A DNA stretch of 64,000 nucleotides. Source: Levilactobacillus mulengensis. GTDB lineage: Bacteria > Bacillota > Bacilli > Lactobacillales > Lactobacillaceae. The stretch covers positions 62,001 to 126,000 of the forward strand of contig NZ_RHNW01000005.1 of the NCBI RefSeq assembly GCF_003946045.1. The letters are read 5' to 3'. The notes under the pieces are model-generated. The model did not search any database. It saw only the letters and a program-made list of their open reading frames with translations, and had not been told where the DNA came from. This document shows, in pieces, positions 1,928 to 63,292 of the stretch (position 1 is the first letter of the stretch; each line of letters begins with the position of its first letter). The position numbers were made by a program, and so were the translations under genes.

Positions 1928-2212
1928 GGGCTAAACCAGTGTCAGCCGCAGGGACGGTGAAAATGAACCAGTCGTGGTAGTGACCAGAGGCGAGCCAAGG
2001 CGACCAGCTGTGTCGGTGGTCTTAGTAGAGCGATTTTCTCTACTTAGAGCACGGGACGACCTTTGAGACCGCACTTCGGCTCAAAGTCGAGGTGCAAGCC
2101 CGCCCCTCAGGCTGAAACCGGCCCCACAGCAGGGCGGCTTGAGCTCGCCGCCGGGAACGGACACGACGAAGGTCATTTTCACCGGCCCGGAGGCGCAACC
2201 GCCGTTTAACCC
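1928..2212 (+). repeat. Structured intergenic repeat, subfamily A (copy E1)
   Basis: Best complete copy of a multi-copy element in this window. Outer ends GGGCTAAAC (1928) and GTTTAACCC (2204-2212) are inverted. An inner inverted repeat pairs 1945-1966 with 2173-2194: 19 of 22 bases, ending in GGTGAAAATGA on the left and TCATTTTCACC on the right. Inside are three hairpins: H1 with inner stem AGTAGAG/CTCTACT, H2 with CTTTGAG/CTCAAAG, and H3 with GGT..AGCC/GGCT..ACC. The element sits between a transporter and a convergent gene and encodes no recognisable protein. It could be a MITE-like non-autonomous element, a structured RNA, or both. Confidence 0.8.
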
Positions 2213-14336: not shown

Positions 14337-14534
14337 GTGAAGGTGATTTTGTTAAGGCGAAGACGTGATGCCGAAAGGAAGGCTGTGACAAGCCCTATCA
14401 GTGCCAGCCACAACATTAGTGAAACTGGGTCCACCCACTCATTGTTAGTGACCAGAGGCGAATCAAAGTACCCTGCTGTGTCGATGGTCTTAGTAGAGCG
14501 AATTTCTCTACTTAGAGCACGGGACGACCTTTGA
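14337..14534 (+). CDS. Possible small ORF with a very strong ribosome site, reading into repeat E2
   Basis: AAAGGAGGTGA at 14329-14339 is a near-perfect anti-16S match; in-frame GTG codons are at 14337 and 14343, the latter better spaced. The product would be about 63-65 aa, Arg-rich at the start (LLRRRRDAERKAVTSPISAS) with the second half encoded by the subfamily A repeat (VTRGESKYPAVSMVLVER..). The same repeat frame is open in E1, E6 and E7 but stops early in E4. No family recognised. It is antisense to the yidC-jag transcript. Could be a real small gene or a chance frame. Confidence 0.3.
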   Translation: MKVILLRRRRDAERKAVTSPISASHNISETGSTHSLLVTRGESKYPAVSMVLVERISLLRARDDL

Positions 14535-14650
14535 GACCGCCCTTTGGCTCAAAGTCGAGGTGGGAAGCCCGCTCCTCAGGCTGGAACCGGCCCCACAGCT
14601 GGGCACTTTGAATCCGCCGTCGGGAACGAATGATCTCTACCCGTTTTCAC
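14399..14650 (+). repeat. Structured intergenic repeat, subfamily A (copy E2), inside the yidC-jag gap
   Basis: Contains the conserved core from GTGACCAGAGGCG (14448) to GTCGGGAACG (14628) with H1 (AGTAGAG/CTCTACT), H2 (CTTTGAG/CTCAAAG) and H3. The arms closing the core, GGCGAATCAAAGTACCCTGC and its partner CAGCTGGGCACTTTGAATCC, pair with few mismatches. The outermost ends are more degenerate than in E1. It interrupts what is normally a compact yidC-jag operon. Confidence 0.75.
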
Positions 14651-14660
14651 TCACGACGAC

Positions 14661-30190: not shown

Positions 30191-31378
30191 CTAAAATTCC
30201 CGATGGCCGCCTAAGTAGACTTGTTTGTCGGCTTGTTTGACGTTGGCCGTGTCCGCCAGTGGATCAGCTTTTAAGACCTGGAAATCAGCAAACTTGCCCA
30301 CTTCTAGTGTGCCGTATTCCTGGTCGACGCCCAGCAGTGCCGCCGAGTTCAAACTCGAGCACTGGTAGGCCTGCGCTGGGGTCATGCCCACGCGCGTTAA
30401 CAGGCCAAACTCGTCTGGTGTTAGGTCAAAACCATTGAAGGGGGTGCCGGCGTCGGTCCCACAGGTGAATTTGACACCGAGCTCGAAGGCCCGTTTCAAA
30501 TTCACGTAGGTATCGTCCAAGGCGTCGGCACATTTCTTCACTTCCCAGTCCGGAAGCACGCCCTTACCGAAGGCGGGAATCGTCCATTCGGCAATGAGGG
30601 TGGGCGTGAGGTAGGTGCCCTGCTTAATCATTTGCCGAGCCTCATCCGCCGTCACGTAGAAACCGTGCTCGATGGAATCGACGCCGGCGTCCAGGGCGTT
30701 TTGAATCCCCGGGTTGCCTTCCGCGTGGGCAGCAACTAACCGGCGCTTGTGATGCGCCTCTTCAACGGCCGCGTGCATTTCCGCCACGGAGAGTTGGGGA
30801 TCCTCCATGAAGTCATTGGGCGTCATAACACCGCCAGTCGCCATGACCTTGACCGTTTCCGCACCGGCCTTGAAGGCTTGACGGACAGCCTTGCGCATTT
30901 CATCGGGAGAATCGACTAGGTAGGCGGCGTGGGGCGCATCCCCGTGGCCCCCGGTCATAGAGAAGGCGCGGCCGGATGTCAACATGTGCGGGGTATGTGG
31001 CAGGAGTCCCTGTTGTTGCAGGCGCTTGAGCTTGACGTCGGAGTCGTAGGTCGTCCCACACTGCCGCACGTAGGTGACCCCAGACTTGAGGAGCGTTTGT
31101 AAATTTTCGTAGGCGAAGACGGCGACCTCGGACTCGGAGTGACCGAACTGGCCACTGAAGGAGTCGGGGCTCAGGGTCACGTGGGTGTGGACGTTGAAGA
31201 AGCCGGGCATCACGTATTGGCCGCCCAAGTCGACCTGGTCATCAGCGGCAGCCGGTGTACCTTGGCCGCGGTCGACTAATTTGTGCGTGTCATTATCAAC
31301 GGTGAACCAGGCATCAGGCACGTTATGGTCGTTGGTACCGTCGAATAGGGTGAAGTTGTGGAAAGTAGTTTTGGTCAT
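30191..31378 (-). CDS. Metal-dependent amidohydrolase (imidazolonepropionase/prolidase-like)
   Basis: 395 aa, complete. Superfamily landmarks in order: PGFFNVHTHVTLSPDSF with HxH metal ligands (about residues 64-66), the lysine-bearing ETVKVMATGGV (carboxylated Lys candidate), AAHAEGN and SIEHGFYVT histidines, and the FTCGTDAGTPF aspartate. These Xaa-Pro dipeptidase/aryldialkylphosphatase-like enzymes hydrolyse cyclic amides or dipeptides. It lies downstream of a T-box controlled oppA, which suggests use of imported peptides. A paralogue at 33568-34602 lacks the EHG segment. Confidence 0.82.
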   Translation of the reverse strand: MTKTTFHNFTLFDGTNDHNVPDAWFTVDNDTHKLVDRGQGTPAAADDQVDLGGQYVMPGFFNVHTHVTLSPDSFSGQFGHSESEVAVFAYENLQTLLKSGVTYVRQCGTTYDSDVKLKRLQQQGLLPHTPHMLTSGRAFSMTGGHGDAPHAAYLVDSPDEMRKAVRQAFKAGAETVKVMATGGVMTPNDFMEDPQLSVAEMHAAVEEAHHKRRLVAAHAEGNPGIQNALDAGVDSIEHGFYVTADEARQMIKQGTYLTPTLIAEWTIPAFGKGVLPDWEVKKCADALDDTYVNLKRAFELGVKFTCGTDAGTPFNGFDLTPDEFGLLTRVGMTPAQAYQCSSLNSAALLGVDQEYGTLEVGKFADFQVLKADPLADTANVKQADKQVYLGGHREF

Positions 31379-31455
31379 AGAAATTCCTCCTGAGATTTAA
31401 AGTACGTTTGTTGTGGGTTACATAGCTGTTTACCTAATTAGAAAAATAAGATTAC

Positions 31456-31494
31456 GGGTTAAGCCAGTATCGGCCCCGGAAACAGGGCTAACCC
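31456..31494. repeat. Solo terminal hairpin related to the structured repeat family
   Basis: GGGTTAAGCCAGTATCGGCC at one end matches the family terminus GGGCTAAGCCAGTG..AGCC (compare 62915), and the far end GGGCTAACCC is its inverted partner. The two ends are joined almost directly. It touches the stop codon of oppA (31494-31496) and may act as a small transcript-stabilising hairpin before the amidohydrolase. Confidence 0.45.
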
Positions 31495-33101
31495 TATTTC
31501 CAGTAAGCATATTGGTATTGCGCCTCGTTTAGCAGCGAGTAGTGGAGTCCACCGACTTTACTGCTGATCAGCTTGGCCTCGGATGGCTGGTAGAGAGGCA
31601 GGTAGCCCTTGACGCTCATTAAGTATTTGTCGGCCTTCATCAGCGACTTGTAGCGTGCCAGACCAGTTTGACCATCGGCGGTTGCGAGCAGCTGGTTGTA
31701 GGTGCTATCGTTCCAGTTGGTGAAGTTGACGGTATTACCTTTGGCTGCCAAATTGAGGTAGTCGGAAGCGTCCAGCCAGTTGGTCGACCAGCCGGTGAGG
31801 TTAAGCTCAAAGGTCCCGGCAAAGTCGCGCGCCACGTGTTGGGCGTGGGGGATGGCGGTCGTGGTGACGGTCAAGCCTTTCAGGTTCTTCTCCATTTCAG
31901 ATTGGAGGTAGGTGCCGACCTTCTTATCGTCGTCGGTATCATCCGTCAAAAGATTCAGCGTGACCTTGGTCTTACCGGTCTCCTTCAGGTATTTCGCCCA
32001 GTAAGTCTTGGCTTGGGCCACGTCGTGGGGTAACAGGTTGCCGACTTCCTTGGCCATGTCCTGCCCAGTCTTCGGGTTCGCCTGGTCGCCTTGTGGCACG
32101 GCACTCAGCGCTGGCTTAGACCCATCCTGGAGCACCTTATTCGTTAATTGCTGGCGGTCGATGACCGCGGAGATGGCTTGGCGTAGGTTCTCGGAGTTCG
32201 TCGCGGCCTTGCGGCTATTGACATACAGGTAGTTCAAGCGGCCAGTTAAATGGGTGTGCAGACTCGCGTCATTGCTGTTCGCCCGTACGTATTCACCAGT
32301 GACCGTGGTCTCCTGAACCTTGTCGCTCTTAAATAGGTTAGCGGCGGTGTTCACGTCCTTGGTGACGGCCACCTTGACGCGCTTGATCTGAACCTCTTTG
32401 GCGTTCCAGTAGTGGGGGTTCTTGACGTAATGCCAGGTGGCGTTACTACCGGTCCAACCGACCAGCTTGTAGGGTCCATTACCAACAGATTTTGCGGCGC
32501 TGGTCCCGTATTTCTGGCCATATTTCTTGACGGTGGCCGTGTTCAGCGGGTAATACTTGCTGGCAACCAGATCATTGAAGTAGGGGACGGCCTTGCTCAG
32601 TTGAAATTGGAGTTTGGTCGTGCTCAGCGCCTTAACGCCTAACTTAGAGGCCGGTAGGGTGCCCTTTTGGACGGCAGCGTAGTTCTTAAATGCCGAGAGG
32701 ACACTGGCGTACTGGGCCTTGGTCTTGGGGTCGGCCATTCGTTGAAGGGAAGTCACGAAGTCCTGGGCGGTGACGCGTTGTCCGTTGGCCCATTTGGCAT
32801 TCTTCTTCAGGGTGAAGGTGTAGGTCTTGCCATGATTAGTTGGGGTGACGACCTTCGTCGCGACGCCGGCCACGATTTTATTGGCTTTGTTATAGGTGTA
32901 GAGGCCTTCCATCGTCTGGTAGATGACGCTGGCACTGTTGGTGTCGGTGTCCTTGTTAGGGTCGGCGGTGGCGGGCTCACTAGCCAGCGTCACGTTGAGC
33001 GTGCGGTTCTTATTGGTCGTGTGACCAGCCGCGCTGCCGCAACCGGCTAAGGATAAGACAGTGAGTAAAGCTAGTGGTGCAGTCCAAACAAAATGTTTCA
33101 T
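31494..33101 (-). CDS. oppA: Oligopeptide ABC transporter substrate-binding lipoprotein (OppA, copy 1)
   Basis: 535 aa from the ATG at 33101, chosen because AGGAGGG lies eight bases upstream. Lipoprotein signal MKHFVWTAPLALLTVLSLAG then CGS, lipobox LAGC. SBP_bac_5 family: NVTLASEPATADPNKDTDTN, YTYNKANKIVAGVATKVV, TLKKNAKWANGQRVTAQDFV and YKLVGWTGSN..PHYWNAK. Binds peptides outside the membrane and delivers them to an Opp permease, which is not in this window. Preceded by a T-box leader; a parS-like site overlaps its start codon. Two paralogues at 35.1 and 50.2 kb. Confidence 0.92.
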   Translation of the reverse strand: MKHFVWTAPLALLTVLSLAGCGSAAGHTTNKNRTLNVTLASEPATADPNKDTDTNSASVIYQTMEGLYTYNKANKIVAGVATKVVTPTNHGKTYTFTLKKNAKWANGQRVTAQDFVTSLQRMADPKTKAQYASVLSAFKNYAAVQKGTLPASKLGVKALSTTKLQFQLSKAVPYFNDLVASKYYPLNTATVKKYGQKYGTSAAKSVGNGPYKLVGWTGSNATWHYVKNPHYWNAKEVQIKRVKVAVTKDVNTAANLFKSDKVQETTVTGEYVRANSNDASLHTHLTGRLNYLYVNSRKAATNSENLRQAISAVIDRQQLTNKVLQDGSKPALSAVPQGDQANPKTGQDMAKEVGNLLPHDVAQAKTYWAKYLKETGKTKVTLNLLTDDTDDDKKVGTYLQSEMEKNLKGLTVTTTAIPHAQHVARDFAGTFELNLTGWSTNWLDASDYLNLAAKGNTVNFTNWNDSTYNQLLATADGQTGLARYKSLMKADKYLMSVKGYLPLYQPSEAKLISSKVGGLHYSLLNEAQYQYAYWK

Positions 33102-33109
33102 GTGAAACA
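33094..33109. promoter_or_regulatory. parS-like site overlapping the oppA copy 1 start codon
   Basis: On the plus strand TGTTTCATGTGAAACA; on the minus strand TGTTTCACATGAAACA. One central mismatch to the parS consensus. The mismatch is created by the ATG start codon of oppA. Confidence 0.6.
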
Positions 33110-33156
33110 CCCTCCTAGAATTCAATTGATTAGAACATTAGCAGCGGTGGACAAAC

Positions 33157-33474
33157 AAAAAGCACCCCTACAGAAAATACTTCTCTGTAAGGGTGCTTGC
33201 GCACGGTACCACCTTATTTTTGCGACGCGAAAACGCATCGTCTTGACTATGAACGGCGGGCTTCCTAGGAGTCGAGGCCCAAGGGCTAGGATCGATTGAA
33301 GCCGCGACTACTCCCGCGATTCACTGCATTGATAACGGATGCTCCCGGTTGACACTTACTTGGATTTCAGCTAACTGCTCCGAAGGGATGTTCACGGCGA
33401 CTGGCTTGACCCGCTCTCACTTTACCGGGCTCGCTGACAAGGATGGTCGCTGCTACTGGACTTCATCATCACAT
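33157..33474 (-). promoter_or_regulatory. T-box riboswitch controlling oppA copy 1
   Basis: On the minus strand: Stem I with AGTA K-turn and terminal-loop elements TCAGCGAGCCCGG and GTGAGAGCGGGTC, a Stem II/III region, then the antiterminator hallmark AAGGTGGTACCGTGCG (33198-33214) and a terminator AGCACCCTTACAG / CTGTAGGGGTGCT TTTT (33157-33195). The specifier loop reads CGTGAACATCC; the triplet one base before the lower stem is ATC (Ile), while a one-base shift gives CAT (His), so the amino acid is tentative. Uncharged tRNA would allow oppA transcription. Confidence 0.9.
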
Positions 33475-33506
33475 TTTCATTTTCTAATCAATTGTTAATA
33501 ATTGCT

Positions 33507-33534
33507 AGTTTAGCACCGAAAAATTATTTGTCAA
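33507..33534 (-). promoter_or_regulatory. Promoter of the T-box/oppA copy 1 unit
   Basis: On the minus strand TTGACA (33529-33534) and TAAACT (33507-33512) with a 16-base spacer, about 35 bases before Stem I. Confidence 0.75.
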
Positions 33535-33567
33535 CGTGAAAATTGAAATTAATTTTGCCGAGGGCCA

Positions 33568-34602
33568 TTAGAATTGTTGGATGCCACCCACGTAAACGCC
33601 TTTATCCGCCTGTTTGACGGCGGCCGTATCGGCTAATGGATCGGCCCGGAGAACTTGGAAATCGGCGTGCTTGCCAACTTCAAGGGTGCCGTAGTCGTCG
33701 GCAACCCCTAAAAGTGTGGCCGAGTTGATGCTGGAACATTGGTAGGCCTGTGCGGGGGTCATCCCCACCTTAGTGAGCAGGCCAAACTCGTCGGGGGTCC
33801 GGTCAAAGCCGTTGAAGGGGGTGCCGGCATCGGTGCCACAGGTAAATTTCACCCCAATTTCAAACGCACGCTTCAGGTTGTGGTAGGTATCATCGATGGC
33901 GTCGACGCCGGCATCGAGGGCGTTTTGAATCCCGGGATTGCCTTCCGCGTGGGCGGCGACGATGCGCCGTTTGTGATGGGCTTCCTCAACGGCCACGTGC
34001 ATCTCGGGCACGGAGAGTTGCGGGTCCTCCATGAAGTCGTTGGGCGTCATGACCCCACCGGTCGCCATGACCTTGATGCATTCGGCGCCGGCCTTAAAGG
34101 CTTGCCGCACGCCCTTGCGCATTTCGTCGGGGGAGTCGACCAGGTAGGCCGAGTTGCGGCCATCCCCGTGGCCCCCGGTCATTGAAAATGCGCGACCGGA
34201 TGCCATGATGTGTGGGGTGTGCGGCAGGATTCCATCGCGTTGAAGCCGCTTGAGTTTAATATCGACGTCGTAAGTCGCACCACACTGGCGAATGTAGGTA
34301 ACGCCTGACTTGAGGAGCTTCTGAAGATTCTCGTAGCCAAAGACCGCGGACTCTGATTCGGACGCACCGAAGCTCCCGCTGAAGGAGTCGGGATTGCTGG
34401 TGATGTGGGTATGCACGTTAATGAAGCCAGGCATGACGTATTGGCCGTGAAGGTCGACTTGTTCATCGGCAGTATCGGGGTGACCCGTGCCGCAGGCCGT
34501 GATCTTACCGGTGTCGGTATCCACGGTAAACCAAGCGTCCGGCGTGTTTTGGTCGCCAGCGCCGTCAAATAGGGTGAAGTTGTAGAATGTTTTTTTCGTC
34601 AT
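33568..34602 (-). CDS. Amidohydrolase paralogue with a 51-residue internal deletion
   Basis: 344 aa, closely similar to the 395 aa enzyme at 30191-31378 along its whole length except for one in-frame gap: where the long copy reads GVDSIEHGFYVT...CADALDDTY, this one reads GVDAIDDTY. The missing segment includes the EHG histidine, one of the usual metal ligands. The HTHITSNPDSF, TCGTDAGTPF and AHAEGN motifs remain. The junction carries CGACGCC, present at both edges of the segment in the long copy, so slippage between short repeats can explain it. Probably inactive or altered. AGGAGG start site intact. Confidence 0.75.
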   Translation of the reverse strand: MTKKTFYNFTLFDGAGDQNTPDAWFTVDTDTGKITACGTGHPDTADEQVDLHGQYVMPGFINVHTHITSNPDSFSGSFGASESESAVFGYENLQKLLKSGVTYIRQCGATYDVDIKLKRLQRDGILPHTPHIMASGRAFSMTGGHGDGRNSAYLVDSPDEMRKGVRQAFKAGAECIKVMATGGVMTPNDFMEDPQLSVPEMHVAVEEAHHKRRIVAAHAEGNPGIQNALDAGVDAIDDTYHNLKRAFEIGVKFTCGTDAGTPFNGFDRTPDEFGLLTKVGMTPAQAYQCSSINSATLLGVADDYGTLEVGKHADFQVLRADPLADTAAVKQADKGVYVGGIQQF

Positions 34603-34687
34603 GGATGAGTCCTCCTGAGTTTGGTGTTTTTTAACTTTGATAATGGATTGATGGAGATTGTTGGGATTGGTGCTGGCGCCTGTCGTG

Positions 34688-35057
34688 TCTTAGGTCGTTA
34701 CCCGTGTTCTGCGCGTGCCTATCCGGAAACCCGCAGCCTCTGAAACGTGCTCCGAGAGCCAGACTCCTGCGCTTAACCCCGGTTCAGCAATGTCCCCTTA
34801 GTAGTCATTGTGCTTATTTTGCTTTAGGTCGTTACCTGTGTTCTACGCGTGTCTATCCGGAAACTTGCGACCTCGGAAACGTGCTACACAAGGCAGACCC
34901 CTGCGCTTAGAAAGTCCAAGCACTCCTGGTCGTTTAAGGCTACAGTGTCTTAAATCATTTGACTTGTTCTGCGGATGTCTATCCGAAAACCCGCGGCCTC
35001 TGAAACGTGCTCCGAGAGCCAGACTCCTGCGCTTAACCCCGGTTCAGTAATGTCCCC
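34688..35057. repeat. Three imperfect tandem copies of an approx. 130-base noncoding unit
   Basis: Units at about 34688-34800, 34822-34920 and 34946-35057 share TGTTCTGCG.GTGTCTATCCGG, then AAACCCGCGGCCTCTGAAAC, GTGCTCCGAGAGCC and AGACTCCTGCGCTTA. Units 1 and 3 are nearly identical for 70 bases; unit 2 is diverged. The last unit runs into a hairpin GGTTCAGTAATGTCCCC / GGGGGCATCACTGAACC (35041-35081). It lies between oppA copy 2 and the shortened amidohydrolase and is transcribed with them on the minus strand. No protein match; spacing and unit size do not fit CRISPR. Confidence 0.7.
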
Positions 35058-35120
35058 AAAGACCGGGGGCATCACTGAACCGACGTTAATGCTCAGAGTC
35101 TAAGCGGCTCTCTCCGCACT

Positions 35121-36728
35121 CTACTTCCAGTAAGCATACTGATACTGGGCGTCGTTGATCAATGAGTACGTCAAGCCGCCGACCTTGTCGCTGATTAGTT
35201 TGGCCTCTGACGGTTGGTACAGAGGGACGTAACCCTTGACGCGCATCAGGTATTTGTTGGCGGTGACCAAACCGTCGTAACGGGCCTGGCCCGTTTTATT
35301 TTCAGCGGTCGTGAGGAGCTGGTTGTAGGTTGGGTCATTCCAGTGGGTGAAGTTGACGGAGTTGTCCTTGGCTGCCAAGTCCAGGTAGTCCGACGCGTCC
35401 AGCCAATTGGTCGACCAGCCAATCAGGTTGATGTCAAAGTCGCCGGAGAAGTCGCGGGCCACGTGTTGGGCGTGGGGCAGCGCAGTCGTTTTCACGGTCA
35501 GGCCCTTGAAGTGTTTCTCCATCACGGATTGCAGGTAGGTGCCAATCTTCTTATCGTCATCACTGTCGTCGGTCAAAATGCTAATGGTGGCGGTGGACTT
35601 GCCGGTCTCCTTCAGGTATTTCTGCCAGTAGTCCTTGGCCTTGGCAATGTCGTGGGGAAGCAGGTTACCGGTTTCGGTGGCCATATCGCCGCCCGTCTTA
35701 GGATTGATTTGGTCGCCGCGTGGAATGGCACTCAACGCTGGCTTGGACCCGTCCTGGAGCACCTGGCTGGTCAACTGATTGCGGTCGACGATGTAGGAAA
35801 CGGCCTGGCGCAAATTTTCGGAGTCGGTGACGGACTTTTTGTGGTTGAAATACAACAGATTCATGCGGCCCAACAGGTGGGTGTGGAGCTGCTTTTCGTT
35901 ACTATTGGCCCGAACGTATTCGCCACTGACCGTGGTTTCCTGGACCTTGCCAGCCTTGAATAGGTTAGCGGCCGTCGTTTCGTCCTTGGTCACGGCGACC
36001 TTAACGCGCTTGATTTTAACGTTCTTGGCGTTCCAGTAGTGGGGATTCTTTACGTAGTGCCAGGTCGAATTGCTCCCAGTCCAGCCGACCAGCTTGTAAG
36101 GGCCATTGGCGACGGCCGTGGTGGCGCTGGTTCCGTACTTACTGCCGTATTTGGTCACGGCGGCGGTGTTCAGCGGATAGTACTTGCTGGCAAGCAGGTC
36201 GTTAAAGTAGGGAACGGCCTTGGTTAACTGAATGCGCAGCTTGGTTTTGCTGAGGGCGGTGATTCCCAGCTTGGATGGGGCGACCTGGCTGTGTTGAATG
36301 GCGGTGTAATTTTTAAATGCCGACAAGACACTGGCGTACTGGGCCTTGGTCTTGGGGTCGGCCATGCGCTGGAGCGAGGTCACAAAGTCCTGGGCGGTGA
36401 CGGGCTGGCCATTGGCCCATTTGGCATTTTTCTTCAGGGTAAACGTATAAGTCTTGCCGTGATTCGTGGGCGTGACGACCTTGGTGGCCACCCCGGGGAT
36501 GATCTTATTGTTGCGGCTATAGGTGTAGAGGCCTTCCATCGTTTGAAAGATGACGCTGGCACTGTTGGTGTCGGTATCCTTGTTAGGGTCGACGGTGGCC
36601 GGTTCATCGGCTAAGGTGACGTTCAAGGTTTGGTTTTTATTGATTTGACCCCCGGCACTGTTGCCACAGGCACTCAAGGTAATGGCCACCAGCATGGTGA
36701 CAGGAATTAGCGCTGCAAAATGTTTCAC
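35121..36728 (-). CDS. oppA: Oligopeptide ABC transporter substrate-binding lipoprotein (OppA, copy 2)
   Basis: 535 aa starting at the GTG at 36728, aligned with the ATG of copy 1 (MKHF..), with AGGAGGG eight bases upstream; the further GTG nine bases earlier is too close to that site. Lipobox in MLVAITLSACGNSAG. Very similar to copy 1 throughout (NVTLADEPATVDPNKDTDTN, PYKLVGWTGSNSTWHYVKNP), so a recent tandem duplication. Own T-box leader and promoter. An exact parS site covers the start codon. Confidence 0.92.
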   Translation of the reverse strand: MKHFAALIPVTMLVAITLSACGNSAGGQINKNQTLNVTLADEPATVDPNKDTDTNSASVIFQTMEGLYTYSRNNKIIPGVATKVVTPTNHGKTYTFTLKKNAKWANGQPVTAQDFVTSLQRMADPKTKAQYASVLSAFKNYTAIQHSQVAPSKLGITALSKTKLRIQLTKAVPYFNDLLASKYYPLNTAAVTKYGSKYGTSATTAVANGPYKLVGWTGSNSTWHYVKNPHYWNAKNVKIKRVKVAVTKDETTAANLFKAGKVQETTVSGEYVRANSNEKQLHTHLLGRMNLLYFNHKKSVTDSENLRQAVSYIVDRNQLTSQVLQDGSKPALSAIPRGDQINPKTGGDMATETGNLLPHDIAKAKDYWQKYLKETGKSTATISILTDDSDDDKKIGTYLQSVMEKHFKGLTVKTTALPHAQHVARDFSGDFDINLIGWSTNWLDASDYLDLAAKDNSVNFTHWNDPTYNQLLTTAENKTGQARYDGLVTANKYLMRVKGYVPLYQPSEAKLISDKVGGLTYSLINDAQYQYAYWK

Positions 36729-36736
36729 GTGGAACA
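36721..36736. promoter_or_regulatory. parS ParB-binding site overlapping the oppA copy 2 start codon
   Basis: On the minus strand TGTTCCACGTGAAACA, an exact consensus match. The GTG start codon of oppA is part of the palindrome centre (CACGTG). Confidence 0.92.
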
Positions 36737-36775
36737 CCCTCCTAGATTCAATTGGTTAGAAATCGTGGTGGACAC

Positions 36776-37070
36776 AAAAAGCGCCCCTACGGAAAGAACT
36801 TCTCCGTAAGGGCGCTGTCGCACGGTACCACCTTAATTTTTTACTCGAATGTGAACGGCGACACTCCTAGAGGCTGGTGACCATCAGCTAGGTCCGGTGG
36901 GCCAGCCAGGTCGCGATTCACTGCAGGGATAACGGTTGCCACCGGTCGGGCTTACTAAATTTCAGCTGACAGTTCAGAAGGGAGTTCGCGTCGTCAGCCT
37001 TGACCCGCTTACACTTAACCGGGCTCGCTAACAAGAACCAATGACGTTACTAGTCTTCATCATCACTTTT
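36776..37070 (-). promoter_or_regulatory. T-box riboswitch controlling oppA copy 2
   Basis: On the minus strand: AGTA motif, TTAGCGAGCCCGG and GTGTAAGCGGGTC of the Stem I head, T-box TTAAGGTGGTACCGTGCG, and terminator AGCGCCCTTACGG / CCGTAGGGGCGCTTTTTG. The specifier loop reads ACGCGAACTCC; the triplet next to the lower stem is CTC (Leu). Same architecture as copy 1 but different candidate specifier. Confidence 0.9.
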
Positions 37071-37100
37071 TAATTTTCTAATCAATTGTTAATGATTGCT

Positions 37101-37128
37101 AGTTTAGCAGGAATTTGAAGAATGTCAA
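37101..37128 (-). promoter_or_regulatory. Promoter of the T-box/oppA copy 2 unit
   Basis: On the minus strand TTGACA (37123-37128) and TAAACT (37101-37106), 16-base spacer, the same layout as at 33507-33534. Confidence 0.75.
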
Positions 37129-46781: not shown

Positions 46782-46853
46782 TAACGTCATTCTTATAATA
46801 GTGACGTTACCCCTACTCCGATGACCATCGCTTTCCCCGAGCGGTGGTTTTTT
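46782..46853 (+). ncRNA. Isolated promoter-terminator unit, candidate short RNA
   Basis: TATAAT (46794-46799) sits inside an inverted repeat TAACGTCA (46782-46789) / TGACGTTA (46802-46809), resembling an operator-covered promoter. About 25 bases further is a hairpin CCATCGCT / GAGCGGTGG followed by TTTTTTT (46825-46853). The predicted transcript is only about 45-50 nt. No -35 box is clear. Alternatively the hairpin is a stray terminator. Confidence 0.3.
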
Positions 46854-46857
46854 TGTG

Positions 46858-47062
46858 CGCTGTTTTATGCCGCCTCCGGGCTGGTGAAAATGGGCCGTGA
46901 CGCTGTGGGCGCACGTCCGAAGCCTGGGAGGCGGTCTTCGGACTTACTTTGAGACTCTGAGAAGCGAGTCTCAAAGATAGCAGTTGCCTAAGCGGGAAAC
47001 CCGCTAAGGCAACTCCCAAGGCTGAGCCCATTTTCACCAGCCCTGCGGCTGACACTGGTTCG
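46858..47062 (-). repeat. Structured intergenic repeat, subfamily B (copy E3, reverse)
   Basis: Inverted termini GCCTCCGGGCTGGTGAAAAT (from 46872) and CCATTTTCACCAGCCCTGCG (to 47049). Read on the minus strand: H1 GTTGCCTTAGCGGG TTT CCCGCTTAGGCAAC, H2 CTTTGAGACTC / GAGTCTCAAAG, H3 TCCGAAG / CTTCGGA. All stems are perfect although their sequences differ from other copies. Confidence 0.78.
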
Positions 47063-47248
47063 GGGAAACCACTGCTCGGGGAATGGGCTGTTGTTGGTAA
47101 TTTATATTGAAGGTAACCAGTGGGGAAGTCATCTAATTCGTGTTGATTGTGGATGAGGATTACACCGTTTGAATTCTAAAAAAAATCCCGATATACCAGC
47201 TATTGATGGTGGTATATCGGGATTTTTGTCGTTAGTTCAGTTTTAGAA

Positions 47249-47897: not shown

Positions 47898-48195
47898 GGG
47901 CTAAACACATGTCAGCCGCAGGGATGGTGAAAAGGGGTGGTCAATGTCAGTGACCAGAGGTGGGCCAAGATGGCCAGCTGTGTCGGTGGTCTTAACTGAG
48001 TGATTTTCTCAGTTTAGAGCACGGGACGACCTTGGAAACTCGCGAACTTCAGCGAGGTTTCAAGGCGAGGTGGCGGACCGCTTCTCAGGCCGGAACCGGT
48101 CCCCACAGCAGGTTATCTTGAGCCCACCGGCGGGAACGAACGTTGTCACCATGTTTTCACCATCCTGGAGGCGGGGGTAACAACCAGTTTAACCC
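47898..48195 (+). repeat. Structured intergenic repeat, subfamily A (copy E4)
   Basis: Outer ends GGGCTAAAC / GTTTAACCC; inner ends GCCGCAGGGATGGTGAAAA and TTTTCACCATCCTGGAGGC, where ATGGTG pairs with CACCAT (compare ACGGTG in E1). H1 is AACTGAG / CTCAGTT, H2 is extended to CCTTGGAAACTCGC / GCGAGGTTTCAAGG. These are compensatory changes relative to E1. The reading frame seen in other copies stops here. Confidence 0.8.
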
Positions 48196-50239: not shown

Positions 50240-51859
50240 ATGAAGAAATTAATGGGATTAGGTTTTGGGTTATTGGCAGTTGCGGCGTTGGCCGGGTGTG
50301 GGTCAACCGCAGCCCAGACGAGTGCGGACAAGGCGAATAAGGCGTTGAGCGTCACCATGGTCGGGAATCCCGCCACGGCCGACCCCGCCATTTCGGGTGA
50401 CAGTAACAGTTCTAGTTTGATTGCGCAGACGGAAGAAGGCCTGTACACGTTGGACAAGAACGGCAAGGTCATCGCCGGGATTGCTGAAAAAGTGGTTAAG
50501 CCCACGAAAAATGGCACCGTTTATACGTTTAAGATCAAAAAAACTGCCAAATGGGCGAATGGCGATCCGGTGACGGCACAAGACTTTGTGACCTCCTTTG
50601 ATTGGCAGGTCAATCCCAAGTCCAAGTCCCAGGTGGCCAACAAGCTCAAATACTTAAAGAATTATGATGCCGTTCAGGCCGGGAAGAAGGCCCCATCCGC
50701 TTTAGGTGCCAAGGCCTTGGACAAGAGCACGTTACAGTTGACGCTATCCAAGCCACAACCCTGGTTGCCAGATATCTTAGCCACGGCGGCGTATCCTATG
50801 AAGACCAGTCTTTTCAATAAATATGGTAGTAAGTACGGGACCAGCGCTGAGAAGACGCTCTCCGAAGGGCCTTACAAGCTGGTTGGCTGGAGTGGCGCGG
50901 CTGACAGCTGGTCTTACGTTAAGAACCCGCATTACTGGAATGCCAAGAACGTGAAAATCTCCAAGGTCAACGTGCAGGTTGTTAAGGATCCGGGCACGTC
51001 GGCTAGCCTGTTCAAGTCTGGCAAGGTTCAAGAGACCGTGCTTTCCGGGCAATACATCAAGCAAAATGCCAACAATCCAGAAATGAACACGACGCTGAAC
51101 AGTTCGATGCGGTTCCTGGAATTTAACGATAAGAAGACCGTGACCCACAATACCAAGGTTCGTCAAGCCTTTTCCTACGTGGTCGACCGGAACGCGCTGA
51201 CGAAGAACGTCCTGCAAGATGGTTCCGCAGCCGCTAAGAGCCTGATTCCTTCCGGCGATGGGAATGACCCAACAACGGGCAAGGACTTCTCCGAAGACGT
51301 GGGCAACCTCTTGAGTTACAACCCTAAAAAGGCCACTGAATTGTGGAACCAAGCGAAGAAGGAACTCGGCATCAAGAAGGCCAATTTGGAACTCCTGACC
51401 GCCGATACGGATGAACAAAAGCACGTGGCCCAATACCTGCAACAACAGGCGCAGAAGTACCTGCCAGGCCTGAGCATCACCATCAAGTCGATGCCATTGG
51501 CCCAACAGATTGCCAAGGGTGCGGCCGGTAACTTTGATATCGACCTCGACGGGTGGACCACGGATTGGCGGGACCCAGCCGACTTCTTACAAATGGCTGA
51601 TGGGACCAGTTCCGTGAACTTTACCAAATGGGATAACGCCCACTTCACTAATTTAATGAAGCAAGTCGACGATACGGCCAGCCACACCACGCAACAACGG
51701 TGGGACCTGTTGAAGCAAGCTGACACCTACGTGACCAAGCAGGCCGGCTTAGTCCCTCTGTACCAACAAGCCAAGGCGCACCTGGTTTCCAAGTCCGTTG
51801 GCGGGTTGAAGTACACCATGATGAGCGATGCGCAATACAAGTACGCTTACTGGAAATAA
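50240..51859 (+). CDS. oppA: Oligopeptide ABC transporter substrate-binding lipoprotein (OppA, copy 3)
   Basis: 539 aa. Lipoprotein signal MKKLMGLGFGLLAVAALAG then CGST. SBP_bac_5 features: SVTMVGNPATADPAISGDSN, EGLYTLDKNGKVIAGIAEKV, KTAKWANGDPVTAQDFVTSF, YKLVGWSGAADSWSYVKNPH. More distant from copies 1 and 2 than they are from each other. No amidohydrolase gene follows; instead a structured repeat begins two bases after the stop codon. Confidence 0.93.
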   Translation: MKKLMGLGFGLLAVAALAGCGSTAAQTSADKANKALSVTMVGNPATADPAISGDSNSSSLIAQTEEGLYTLDKNGKVIAGIAEKVVKPTKNGTVYTFKIKKTAKWANGDPVTAQDFVTSFDWQVNPKSKSQVANKLKYLKNYDAVQAGKKAPSALGAKALDKSTLQLTLSKPQPWLPDILATAAYPMKTSLFNKYGSKYGTSAEKTLSEGPYKLVGWSGAADSWSYVKNPHYWNAKNVKISKVNVQVVKDPGTSASLFKSGKVQETVLSGQYIKQNANNPEMNTTLNSSMRFLEFNDKKTVTHNTKVRQAFSYVVDRNALTKNVLQDGSAAAKSLIPSGDGNDPTTGKDFSEDVGNLLSYNPKKATELWNQAKKELGIKKANLELLTADTDEQKHVAQYLQQQAQKYLPGLSITIKSMPLAQQIAKGAAGNFDIDLDGWTTDWRDPADFLQMADGTSSVNFTKWDNAHFTNLMKQVDDTASHTTQQRWDLLKQADTYVTKQAGLVPLYQQAKAHLVSKSVGGLKYTMMSDAQYKYAYWK

Positions 51860-51860
51860 C

Positions 51861-52026
51861 GGATTAAACTGGTTTCTGGCAGCGCCTCCGAGCTGGTGAA
51901 AATGGGCCGTGACGCTGTGGGCGCCCGTCTGAAGCCTGAGAGGCGGTCTTCGGCTCCGGGTGTTCGCCCACAGCGTTCCGACTCGTTTTCCTCGCCCCGG
52001 AGGCGAAAGCCAACACTGTTTTAAAC
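51861..52026 (-). repeat. Structured intergenic repeat, subfamily B, shortened (copy E5)
   Basis: Outer ends GGATTAAAC / GTTTTAAAC, inner ends GCCTCCGAGCTGGTGAAAAT and CGTTTTCCTCGCCCCGGAGGC. Only the H3-type hairpin (CGTCTGAAGCC .. GGTCTTCGG) and CGCTGTGGGCG / CGCCCACAGCG remain; H1 and H2 are deleted. It abuts the oppA copy 3 stop codon and may stabilise or end that transcript. Confidence 0.7.
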
Positions 52027-52094
52027 AAACTAATCAGTGAGTGCTTGCCCCGTGAGACAGGGCTCACCGACTAACCTCAAATTTTCGACCTCTA

Positions 52095-53707: not shown

Positions 53708-53910
53708 GGTGCGATGGCGGCCGTTTCCGGCAGTGGGCTCAAAGTACCCTGCTGTGTGGCCGGTTCCAGCCTGAGAAAGCGGCTTCCACCTCAACTTTGA
53801 GCCTGAGGGGCGGTCTCAAAGGTTGTCCCATGCTCTAAGCAGAGAAGAGCGCTCTACTAAGACCATCGACATAGCAGGGCACTTTGGCCCGCCTCTGGTC
53901 ACTGACGTTA
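53708..53910 (-). repeat. Structured intergenic repeat, subfamily A (copy E6, reverse)
   Basis: Read on the minus strand it has GTGACCAGAGGCGGGCC, H1 AGTAGAG / CTCTGCT (a G-U pair replaces A-U), H2 CTTTGAG / CTCAAAG, H3 GGTGGAAGCC / GGCTGGAACC, and closing arms AGTGCCCTGCTA / TAGCAGGG-type pairing. Outer terminal repeats are degraded. Lies upstream of the matrixin gene. Confidence 0.75.
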
Positions 53911-61275: not shown

Positions 61276-61500
61276 GGGGTGAAAAGTTTTCTGCGATGGT
61301 TGTTTCCGGCGGCGGGCCAGGTGTCCTGCTAGTGGGGACCGGTTCCAGCCTGGGAAGCGGTCTTCCACCTCGCTTTTAAGCCTGGAAGCCCGCCAGTCTC
61401 AAAAGTCGTCCCATGGCCTAAGCTGAGGAAATCGCTCAGCTAAAGCCATCGACACAGCTGGGCACCTAGCCCCGCCTCTGGTCGCTGTTGATGGTGGAAA
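61276..61500 (-). repeat. Structured intergenic repeat, subfamily A (copy E7, reverse)
   Basis: On the minus strand: GCGACCAGAGGCGGGGC, H1 ATGGC..AGCTGAG / CTCAGCT..GCCAT (both outer and inner stems differ from E1 but remain paired), H2 CTTTTGAG / CTTAAAAG, H3 GGTGGAAGACC / GGCTGGAACC. Located immediately after the walI terminator. Confidence 0.78.
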
Positions 61501-61599: not shown

Positions 61600-61807
61600 G
61601 GGTCAACCCAGTCTAAGCCGCAGGGTGGGTGAAAATGAGCTCAGCCGTGGGAGTTATCTTAGCGACGGGCTTTGCCGCTTAGATAACTGCTATCTTTGAG
61701 ACGTGGTCTTCGGCTCAAAGTAAGTTCGGAGACCGCCCTGTGGCTCCGGACGGGCGCCCACCGCGTCACGGCTCAATTTTCACCCGCCCGGAGGCGGAGG
61801 TTAACCC
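61600..61807 (+). repeat. Structured intergenic repeat, subfamily B (copy E8)
   Basis: Outer ends GGGTCAACCC / GGTTAACCC; inner ends GCCGCAGGGTGGGTGAAAAT and ATTTTCACCCGCCCGGAGGC (GGGTGAAAAT pairs ATTTTCACCC). H1 GTTATCTTAGCG / CGCTTAGATAAC, H2 CTTTGAG / CTCAAAG, H3 CGGAG / CTCCG. Only about 90 bases upstream of walJ, so it may sit in the walJ promoter region. Confidence 0.8.
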
Positions 61808-61897: not shown

Positions 61898-62725
61898 TTG
61901 AATTTGCGAACGGATACAGCAGTAGCAGATGACCTGCGCATCAGCATTTTATCTAGTGGTAGCACGGGTAATGTGGCCTACGTGGAGAGCCCCAACGAAC
62001 GCATCATGATTGATGCCGGGTTGAGTGGCAAGAAGATTGAAAAGTTGATGGGCGATATCAACCGGAACATGAACGACGTGAACGCGTTGTTGGTCACCCA
62101 TGAACACTCGGATCACCGGCAGGCTGTGGGCATTTTGGCGCGGCGGTACGAGCAGCTGAACGTGTACGCCAACAAGGGCACTTGGGACGCTATGGATAGC
62201 AAAATTGGCAAGGTCGAATTGGCCCAAAAGCATTTGTTTGCGCCGGATACGGTCCAGACGTTCGGGGACATTGACGTGGAGAGTTTCTCCGTGTCCCACG
62301 ATGCCGCCGAACCCCAATTCTACGCGATTCACTACCACGGGAAGACGTTTGTCATTTTGACGGATACCGGCTACGTTTCCGAGCACGTGGAAGGTGTGAT
62401 CAAGGACGCCGACGCCTACCTGCTGGAGTGCAACCATGACGTGGAAATGCTGCGGATGGGCGAGTACTCGTGGCCACTGAAGCAGCGGATCCTGGGCGAC
62501 AAGGGGCACTTGTCAAACGAAGAGGGCGCTGACGCGTTGATGGACGTGCTGGGCAACCGGACCAAGAAAATCTACCTCGGCCACCGGAGCCTGCACAATA
62601 ACATGCAGTCACTGTGTCACCTGACCGTGGCCTCCATGATGGAAAACCGCGATTTCGGCGTCGGCCATGACTTCCAGCTGATCGATACCAATCCAGAAGA
62701 AGCTACGCCACTGGTTGCGTTGTAG
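61898..62725 (+). CDS. walJ: WalJ (YycJ) metallo-beta-lactamase-fold hydrolase
   Basis: 275 aa, TTG start behind AAGGAGAGG. MBL fold: RISILSSGSTGNVAYVESPN at the start, metal ligands in LLVTHEHSDHRQAVG (HxHxDH), FSVSHDAAEP, ILTDTGYVSEHVEG, and LECNHDVEML; ends with a GHRSLHNNMQS-type loop. A 5-prime exonuclease linked to mismatch repair and wall metabolism in relatives. Usually the fifth gene of the wal operon; here separated by two repeats. Confidence 0.92.
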   Translation: MNLRTDTAVADDLRISILSSGSTGNVAYVESPNERIMIDAGLSGKKIEKLMGDINRNMNDVNALLVTHEHSDHRQAVGILARRYEQLNVYANKGTWDAMDSKIGKVELAQKHLFAPDTVQTFGDIDVESFSVSHDAAEPQFYAIHYHGKTFVILTDTGYVSEHVEGVIKDADAYLLECNHDVEMLRMGEYSWPLKQRILGDKGHLSNEEGADALMDVLGNRTKKIYLGHRSLHNNMQSLCHLTVASMMENRDFGVGHDFQLIDTNPEEATPLVAL

Positions 62726-62914
62726 GCGAAATTGGTGAGTGGCAGATTGTTGGTTGGGATTAACTGAATCGAGTAAGAATAACCAGACAGATTAACAGCA
62801 AGGCTACGCAATGTCACAACCTGCGTAAAGTCGAGCAGGCCCAACCAGTAAGTCACAAAACAAAACCAACAACCAAACAAGTAACCACCTAATTTACCAA
62901 ACAACGACGAACCA

Positions 62915-63131
62915 GGGCTAAGCCAGTGTTAGCCGATAGGGCGGGCAAAATGGACTCAGCCGTGGGAATGCTCTTAGTGGCAGGTCTTGCCGCTTAGAGC
63001 ATTGGTATCTTTGAGACTCGGGTTGTGAGGCTCAAAGTAAGCTGGAAGACCGCACTTTGGCTTCCGGCGTCTGCCCACAGCGTCACGGTCCATTTTGACC
63101 GCCCGGCAAGGCGACCCAACACGTCTTACCC
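62915..63131 (+). repeat. Structured intergenic repeat, subfamily B (copy E9)
   Basis: Left end GGGCTAAGCCAGTGTTAGCC then GATAGGGCGGGCAAAATGGA; right end TCCATTTTGACCGCCCGGC. H1 ATGCTC..AGTGGCA / TGCCGCT..GAGCAT, H2 CTTTGAG / CTCAAAG, H3 GGAAG / CTTCC. The terminal stem has changed (GTCAAAATGG versus GGTGAAAATG) but still pairs with small defects. Lies between walJ and htrA. Confidence 0.78.
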
Positions 63132-63292
63132 CAGGTTCTTCGTAAGATTTGGTAAACTTTAGGACTTCAGCACCGAATCGTCGAAAAAAATTCATACTCA
63201 CTCGTTAAGATGAATATAATTAAAAAACGACGGCCGGAGCGGCAACGCCCCTGGCCGATAAATGAGGAGGGTTCGCGCGTTAGCGCAATGTG

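Follow-up and report, generated by a model that had tools for sequence, protein, structure and literature searches.

Nine copies of a large and apparently uncatalogued repeat family lie in the 64,000-nucleotide stretch of the Levilactobacillus mulengensis genome analysed here (the window). With a probability of roughly one half, we read this family as a non-autonomous mobile hairpin element whose insertion involved fold-back (snap-back) DNA synthesis and whose copies later recombined with one another. Its fold shows conservation and constraint, its right end tends to lie at a gene boundary, and its insertion sites carry no direct target duplication; sites persist between sister species while the occupant can change subfamily. 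Copies were observed in chromosomes only.

A covariance model trained on 26 cores, all from outside the window, was run against both strands of the window and gave nine matches with E <= 0.01; these were the nine copies described in the earlier note; nhmmer also recovered them. The training cores comprised nine from the same genome (L003, L006, L009, L012, L018, L021, L024, L027 and L030), two from the sister genomes of L. lanxiensis and L. cerevisiae, and 15 from further loci that the genus search had yielded. The copies and their associated features are as follows.

1928-2212, + strand: E1, subfamily A, full length; core 2002-2134; terminal GGGCTAAAC...GTTTAACCC; arms, H1, H2 and H3
1893-1925, + strand: left flank of E1, an imperfect inverted repeat of its right flank
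2215-2246, - strand: right flank of E1, the inverted-repeat partner, a flank common to L. lanxiensis
1645-1706, - strand: remnant of another A copy, with a longer copy kept at the orthologous place in L. lanxiensis
14397-14651, + strand: E2, subfamily A; core 14470-14603; between KhpB/Jag-like and YidC-like genes
46862-47060, - strand: E3, subfamily B; core 46898-47027
46833-46849, + strand: right-side (native) flank of E3, part of a terminator-like sequence also found in L. cerevisiae
47067-47083, - strand: left-side inverted copy of the terminator-like sequence of E3
47898-48193, + strand: E4, subfamily A; core 47972-48113
51855-52028, no strand assigned: E5, B copy without its hairpins; weak core match at 51910-51979 on the - strand (20.5 bits, E 0.00076)
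53710-53906, - strand: E6, subfamily A core without standard outer arms; core 53747-53880
61278-61486, - strand: E7, subfamily A core without standard outer arms; core 61324-61463; between a yycI-like gene and a gene which, from synteny, we take to be yycJ/walJ-like
61601-61798, + strand: E8, subfamily B; core 61639-61768
62915-63127, + strand: E9, subfamily B; core 62954-63085
62888-62913, + strand: left flank of E9, an inverted copy of its native right flank
63134-63163, - strand: native right flank of E9, with a TAAACTTTAGGACTT stretch at its outer end conserved in element-free species

The element measures about 200-285 nt and has three inner hairpins. Its core of about 130-140 nt consists of a closing stem, H1 (CTTAG..CTTAG, with a conserved U-U mismatch), H2 and H3, and a loop motif near GAGACCGC..GGCTC was seen by eye in H2 and H3 of subfamily A and again in H3 of subfamily B. 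The outer arms are common to A and B, and their ends, GGGYTAAAC...GTTTAACCC, appear by eye as terminal inverted repeats in full copies, the right end being the weaker; E6 and E7 carry none, as their standard outer arms are missing (also judged by eye). Best profile scores placed the copies at 1928, 14399, 47898, 53708 and 61276 in subfamily A and those at 46858, 61600 and 62915 in subfamily B, confirming the division into two subfamilies drawn previously from the sequence alone. Since the orthologous site in L. lanxiensis holds a complete B copy, E5 (at 51861) is a B copy that has lost its hairpins. The recovery of all nine copies by a model built from outside cores upholds the shared folded architecture that had been claimed for them.

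The family had not been recognised in the earlier note, and no Rfam 15 family fits it. At the gathering score only tRNA was matched in the window and none of nine loci from other genomes gave a match, so an Rfam identity was rejected; a permissive search of three loci returned one weak miRNA match, outside the element. No description of the family was found in the literature covered, including the accessible parts of PMC2267715, PMC3733652 and PMC3116915, a scope that leaves out most subscription journals. Elsewhere in the window, two similar leaders (33155-33221 and 36774-36840) lie upstream of two minus-strand ORFs and carry on the minus strand a sequence resembling the T-box motif GGTGGTACC, where Rfam at the gathering score lists no T-box. 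These leaders belong to a tandem duplication at 30191-37109 with a block of about 3.2-3.6 kb, the pieces of which are 73-94% identical.

The 3.11-Mb genome of L. mulengensis gave at least 57 matches to an A query (best 40 of 361 candidates scored) and at least 43 to a B query (best 40 of 213 candidates scored); both totals are lower bounds and the two match lists overlap partly. The density is uneven: nhmmer gave 64 hits over 140 kb on contig C12 and 14 over 164 kb on C32, the contig of the window. A search of the genus with a DNA query was positive in 25 of 35 genomes, and the model matched at least 80 of 301 Lactobacillaceae genomes from at least 11 of 40 genera (best 10 candidates scored per genome), which bears out the expected presence in related Lactobacillaceae. 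All 12 matching genomes in a sample of 295 Lactobacillales genomes from 74 genera were Lactobacillaceae. With up to 150 candidates scored in each of ten named genomes, CD0817 gave 146 matches, L. parabrevis 140 and L. paucivorans 119; weaker matches were obtained from L. brevis ATCC 14869 (9) and Secundilactobacillus oryzae (1, weak), and the other five gave none. CD0817 is titled L. brevis, and its 146 matches compare with the 9 weaker ones of ATCC 14869; YycI of the window is 95% identical to that of CD0817 versus 84% to that of ATCC 14869, and the species label of CD0817 may be wrong. Only one of the 79 listed CD0817 positions falls in the first 300 kb, which together with the sparse C32 hints at an uneven chromosomal distribution. 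The 79 positions showed no replication-direction bias (36/79, with the origin assumed at coordinate 1).

Covariation of the stems, the basis of the earlier claim of selection on a folded molecule, was assessed on an alignment of 26 cores from the genus with 37 pairs, of which 96.5% were standard and 23 had changed on both sides. The covariation score of 0.429 far exceeded that of shuffled alignments (0.187 +- 0.011; 0 of 500 reached it) and that of slid controls (at most 0.104), and the stems were accordingly found to covary as claimed. In 55 pairs of orthologous copies at least 0.90 identical, divergence per base was 0.043 in stems versus 0.107 at unpaired positions, so pairing is constrained in place; these pairs contained 47 double changes (32 paired) versus 7.6 expected, and one-sided stem intermediates were common (262 single changes). 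Two orthologous B copies nevertheless had their differences concentrated in H3, as two to three compensated pairs plus a changed loop, and were mostly identical elsewhere. From this pattern, part of the apparent compensation may be whole-hairpin swapping between copies, and since such swapping can feed covariation in multi-copy repeats, a covariation signal alone is no proof of RNA. On the + strand, single changes to G-U outnumbered those to A-C by 157:113 in all orthologous copies (p 0.009, uncorrected for relatedness), by 105:67 in the pairs at least 0.90 identical, by 52:46 in more diverged pairs and by 72:46 in within-genome alignments. True RNAs show a far larger G-U excess; a terminator control of 14 comparisons contained only two changes, both G-U, and was too small for calibration. 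The bias only weakly supports selection at the RNA level. Of the earlier claim, the constraint on pairing at single sites stood; the folded molecule may be RNA or, as that claim also allowed, single-stranded DNA.

The earlier note mentions neither polarity nor inverted flank copies nor subtype switching. Polarity was counted for 93 well-matched L. mulengensis copies using simple calls of ORFs of at least 90 aa. Of 90 right ends, 55 had an ORF within 70 nt, against 5 of 88 left ends; for convergent right neighbours, the stop fell inside this distance in 44 of 56 cases. On C12 the right genes were convergent in 19 cases and codirectional in 19, and as right neighbours thus present both stops and starts, the element is more than a 3′ UTR element. 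Among 19 copies in other species, 16 of which belong to other genera, 18 also had the right gene closer than the left one. In 30 genomes, six elements were found up to about 450 nt past purK, each of them antisense to that gene. The elements often occur in inverted pairs (C12; L141-L147, L201, L203, L205, L207), arranged left end to left end with the right ends pointing outward to the flanking genes.

Inverted flank copies were sought by comparing the left 150 nt of each of 74 copies with the reverse complement of the right 150 nt, against a background of all mismatched pairs. They were found at p <= 0.01 in 25 copies (0.7 expected), leaving 49 without a significant copied flank at that level, and at p <= 0.05 in 38 (3.7 expected); no copy reached p 0.001 because the background retains neighbouring copies. 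Among the 25, the right member alone was coding in 12, the left alone in none, both in 2 and neither in 11. The five top-scoring copied arms were 38-68 nt long, with at least half of the right arm within an ORF. Seven strong cases were read, and all of them pair the 3′ end of a convergent ORF on the right, 14-36 nt from the hit, with an imperfect inverted copy of it on the left. Six proteins of these right-flank ORFs were checked; five had Pfam domains and one had none, and as a glucosaminidase-like domain reaches residue 213 of 218 in its protein, that coding end is genuine. Repeating the test on about 140 kb (C12) in three sister genomes gave 9/38, 8/32 and 4/30 at p <= 0.01, with the right member alone coding in 13, the left alone in none, both in 2 and neither in 6; these three results depend on one another and on the 74-copy test. 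Among copies from other species and genera, 7 of 19 exceeded the 99th percentile of mismatched pairs, a figure to which the element's own arms contribute.

Two sites were compared with and without the element, using shuffles that preserve base composition only. At the E9 site each of the 17 species loci has the right-flank motif, and the upstream inverted copy was found in 4/4 loci with the element (p 0, 0, 0 and 0.03; 300 shuffles) and in 0/13 without it (all p >= 0.28). On the 3′ side of purK, an element lies within about 450 nt in 6 of 30 loci and in none of the other 24. In L. mulengensis, the side of the element away from purK carries a 51-nt inverted copy of the end of the gene (score 38, reached in 0/200 shuffles), and inverted copies at p <= 0.05 occur in 4/6 loci with the element (L. 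mulengensis, two sisters at 0.015 and 0.035, and L. cerevisiae at 0.015); the other two of the six species gave p 0.135 and 0.4. Among the 24 element-free loci, three (L215, L235, L237) have inverted copies at p <= 0.05, 13-22 nt long and 34-62 nt past the stop, as a terminator would give. A direct target duplication was detected in 1 of 63 copies (background 1.4%) and inverted repeats at the same positions in 11 of 63 (background 1.2%).

Three sister species were compared over C12 and the corresponding parts of L. lanxiensis and L. wangkuiensis, where most mappable sites are filled in all three. The relationship is close: a window protein at 61898-62722 (YycJ/WalJ-like by position) is identical in L. 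lanxiensis and L. wangkuiensis, and the YycH-like protein is 97.7% identical to its L. lanxiensis counterpart. Orthologues were matched by right flank in 99 comparisons, 29 further copies without a partner being dropped, and the subfamily had changed in 24. Right flanks in subfamily-changed pairs were 96% identical, the same as in unchanged ones. Of the 75 same-type pairs, 20 were under 0.90 identical, the paralogue mean being 0.77 for A and 0.80 for B. Seven loci aligned over their full length have differing interiors, in several cases between common flanks and ends. Partial hits covering the left part, mostly to the left of a full copy, made up 7/64, 7/64 and 4/56 of the hits in the three species, where 11, 8 and 7 hits covered only the core; at C12 72342 the left flank is itself tandemly duplicated, so left parts can stem from tandem duplication plus deletion. 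No clean new insertion was recognised at sites with mappable flanks in these stretches, and two apparent presence/absence sites proved on alignment to be internal deletions.

We infer that insertion proceeds by fold-back synthesis, since inverted copies, polarity and the lack of direct duplication are the expected traces of a strand that folds back and primes on the arms of the element. The process would start from a DNA 3′ end located at a gene boundary, which would copy the element leftward from its right end; the new strand would then fold back on the complementary arms, prime itself, copy its flank of origin and rejoin the template. The product would be a larger palindrome, native on the right and copied on the left. 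Arm-to-arm recombination would afterwards exchange hairpins or entire interiors among copies, and tandem and deleted forms would result from slippage. A simple model of one event followed by decay predicts higher flank scores in copies closer to the family model, taken as younger, and no such relation was seen (rho 0.05, p 0.68). The 49 copies without a significant copied flank also speak against the fold-back reading, as do the weaker signal at purK in the two sisters and its absence in two of the six species there, the lack of a recognised new insertion, the failure to find a partner enzyme and the absence of a replication-direction bias. Continuing correction of the flank copy was rejected, as within-species and cross-species flank scores barely differ (means 24.0 and 23.2; within-species higher in 44, equal in 21 and lower in 29 of 94 values), and the near equality makes the copies look like old events. 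An extended picture is put forward tentatively, and we hold it clearly less probable than the mechanism just outlined: the folded core would act as a turn-around, each insertion would make a copy-specific palindrome and fixed sites would serve as slots for subfamily exchange, in at least 11 genera and possibly without a dedicated transposase.

Four other explanations were weighed against fold-back insertion. Complementary flanks could be the remains of target stems if the element inserted, like EFAR, into pre-existing stem-loops such as terminators, and E3, which adjoins a terminator-like sequence and its inverted half, is compatible with this. The E9 and purK loci speak against it, the inverted copy at E9 going with the element and the few element-free signals at purK being short and at terminator distance; moreover, the top five copied arms, half or more coding on the right, are implausible as pre-existing stem-loops, and we consider this explanation unlikely. 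Equally unlikely, in our estimate, is a structured RNA (an untranslated-region element or small RNA) retained at each site for its role as RNA and multiplied by copying. It would account for the strong covariation, the lower divergence of stems than loops at orthologous sites, the mild G-U excess and the greater stability of the + strand cross-genus consensus fold (-39.6 versus -21.6). The excess is small, however, with 13 G-U versus 8 A-C cells at the pairs predicted on both strands in the 26-core alignment, the + strand is antisense to a convergent neighbour, and occupants switch subfamily.

Somewhat less probable still is a classical MITE that a DDE or Y1/RAYT transposase mobilises in trans; its flank palindromes would then stem from later, unrelated replication slippage. 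Size, copy number, intergenic position and the terminal inverted motif agree with this, and the L. mulengensis genome has five Y1 transposase genes (L080-L084). These genes lie, however, in 1.9-kb units that are 88-92% identical and probably IS200/IS605-type insertion sequences, with no element hit within about 1.5 kb, and a Y1 partner was therefore rejected; a search with PF01797 found no RAYT-like single gene near the copies examined. Such a MITE would also leave the one-sided flank copying unexplained, direct target duplication is absent, and blastn with two queries found no match in plasmid and phage collections, from which records close to L. mulengensis may be missing. An 18-base pattern occurred in 17 viral contigs, roughly the number estimated for chance, and the model gave no credible match in them (best E 0.18). 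A retroelement, in which + strand RNA would undergo target-primed reverse transcription and cDNA snap-back would make the flank copy, fits the geometry of the product and the weak G-U bias on the would-be RNA strand. We regard it as very improbable: a reverse transcriptase partner was rejected as PF00078 had no match in the L. mulengensis genome, and its presence in 10 of 35 genus genomes was, by eye, unrelated to element copy number.

With this family, widely used food bacteria gain a large and apparently unnamed class of repeats. Its copies form a natural record of apparent fold-back DNA synthesis fixed beside genes, and of exchange between subtypes at constant positions; they also give a warning that covariation in multi-copy repeats may derive partly from whole-hairpin swapping. 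If the flank copies are transcribed, the 3′ ends of genes would pair with their own coding sequence.

Among known systems, REPINs and REP-BIMEs with RAYT are likewise hairpin elements, intergenic and many per genome, that persist as sequence populations (accessible parts of PMC3116915 and PMC8049555), and the foot of their hairpin is tagged GTAG or CGTC (accessible part of PMC3733652). The present elements differ in their 200-285 nt with three inner hairpins instead of two REPs, in the lack of a RAYT-like single gene near the copies examined and in their one-sided inverted flank copies. EFAR of Enterococcus faecalis is a modular, folded, intergenic, MITE-like repeat with copy-specific complementary ends that integrates into pre-existing stem-loops, and the present family shares the modular folded form, the intergenic position and the complementary ends. 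In contrast, its copied arms extend into coding sequence, its inverted copy is absent from element-free sites at E9, and the 295 Lactobacillales genomes, among which E. faecalis may not be represented, gave no match outside Lactobacillaceae. Integron attC is a folded recombination site, often right after a stop codon, with core sites GTTRRRY and RYYYAAC; the elements here also fold close behind stop codons, but their end motif GTTTAAC does not match GTTRRRY and they are dispersed, not in cassette arrays. Repetitive hairpin-forming elements in sponge mitochondria are multi-copy and intergenic too (accessible part of PMC2800124). Those are organellar. To our knowledge, they have no gene-directed polarity. 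EFAR repeats are mentioned in a list in PMC3733652. Like the present family, bcr1 of the Bacillus cereus group is a chromosomal repeat resembling a mobile element (title cited in PMC3733652). A direct target duplication, which accompanies bcr1 and is a MITE trait too, was not seen here. The other traits of MITEs are present, namely short length, no apparent coding capacity, high copy number, a mostly intergenic position and, in full copies, terminal inverted repeats by eye. We conclude that this is a new family of a broadly known kind (MITE-, REPIN- or EFAR-like) with unusual properties.
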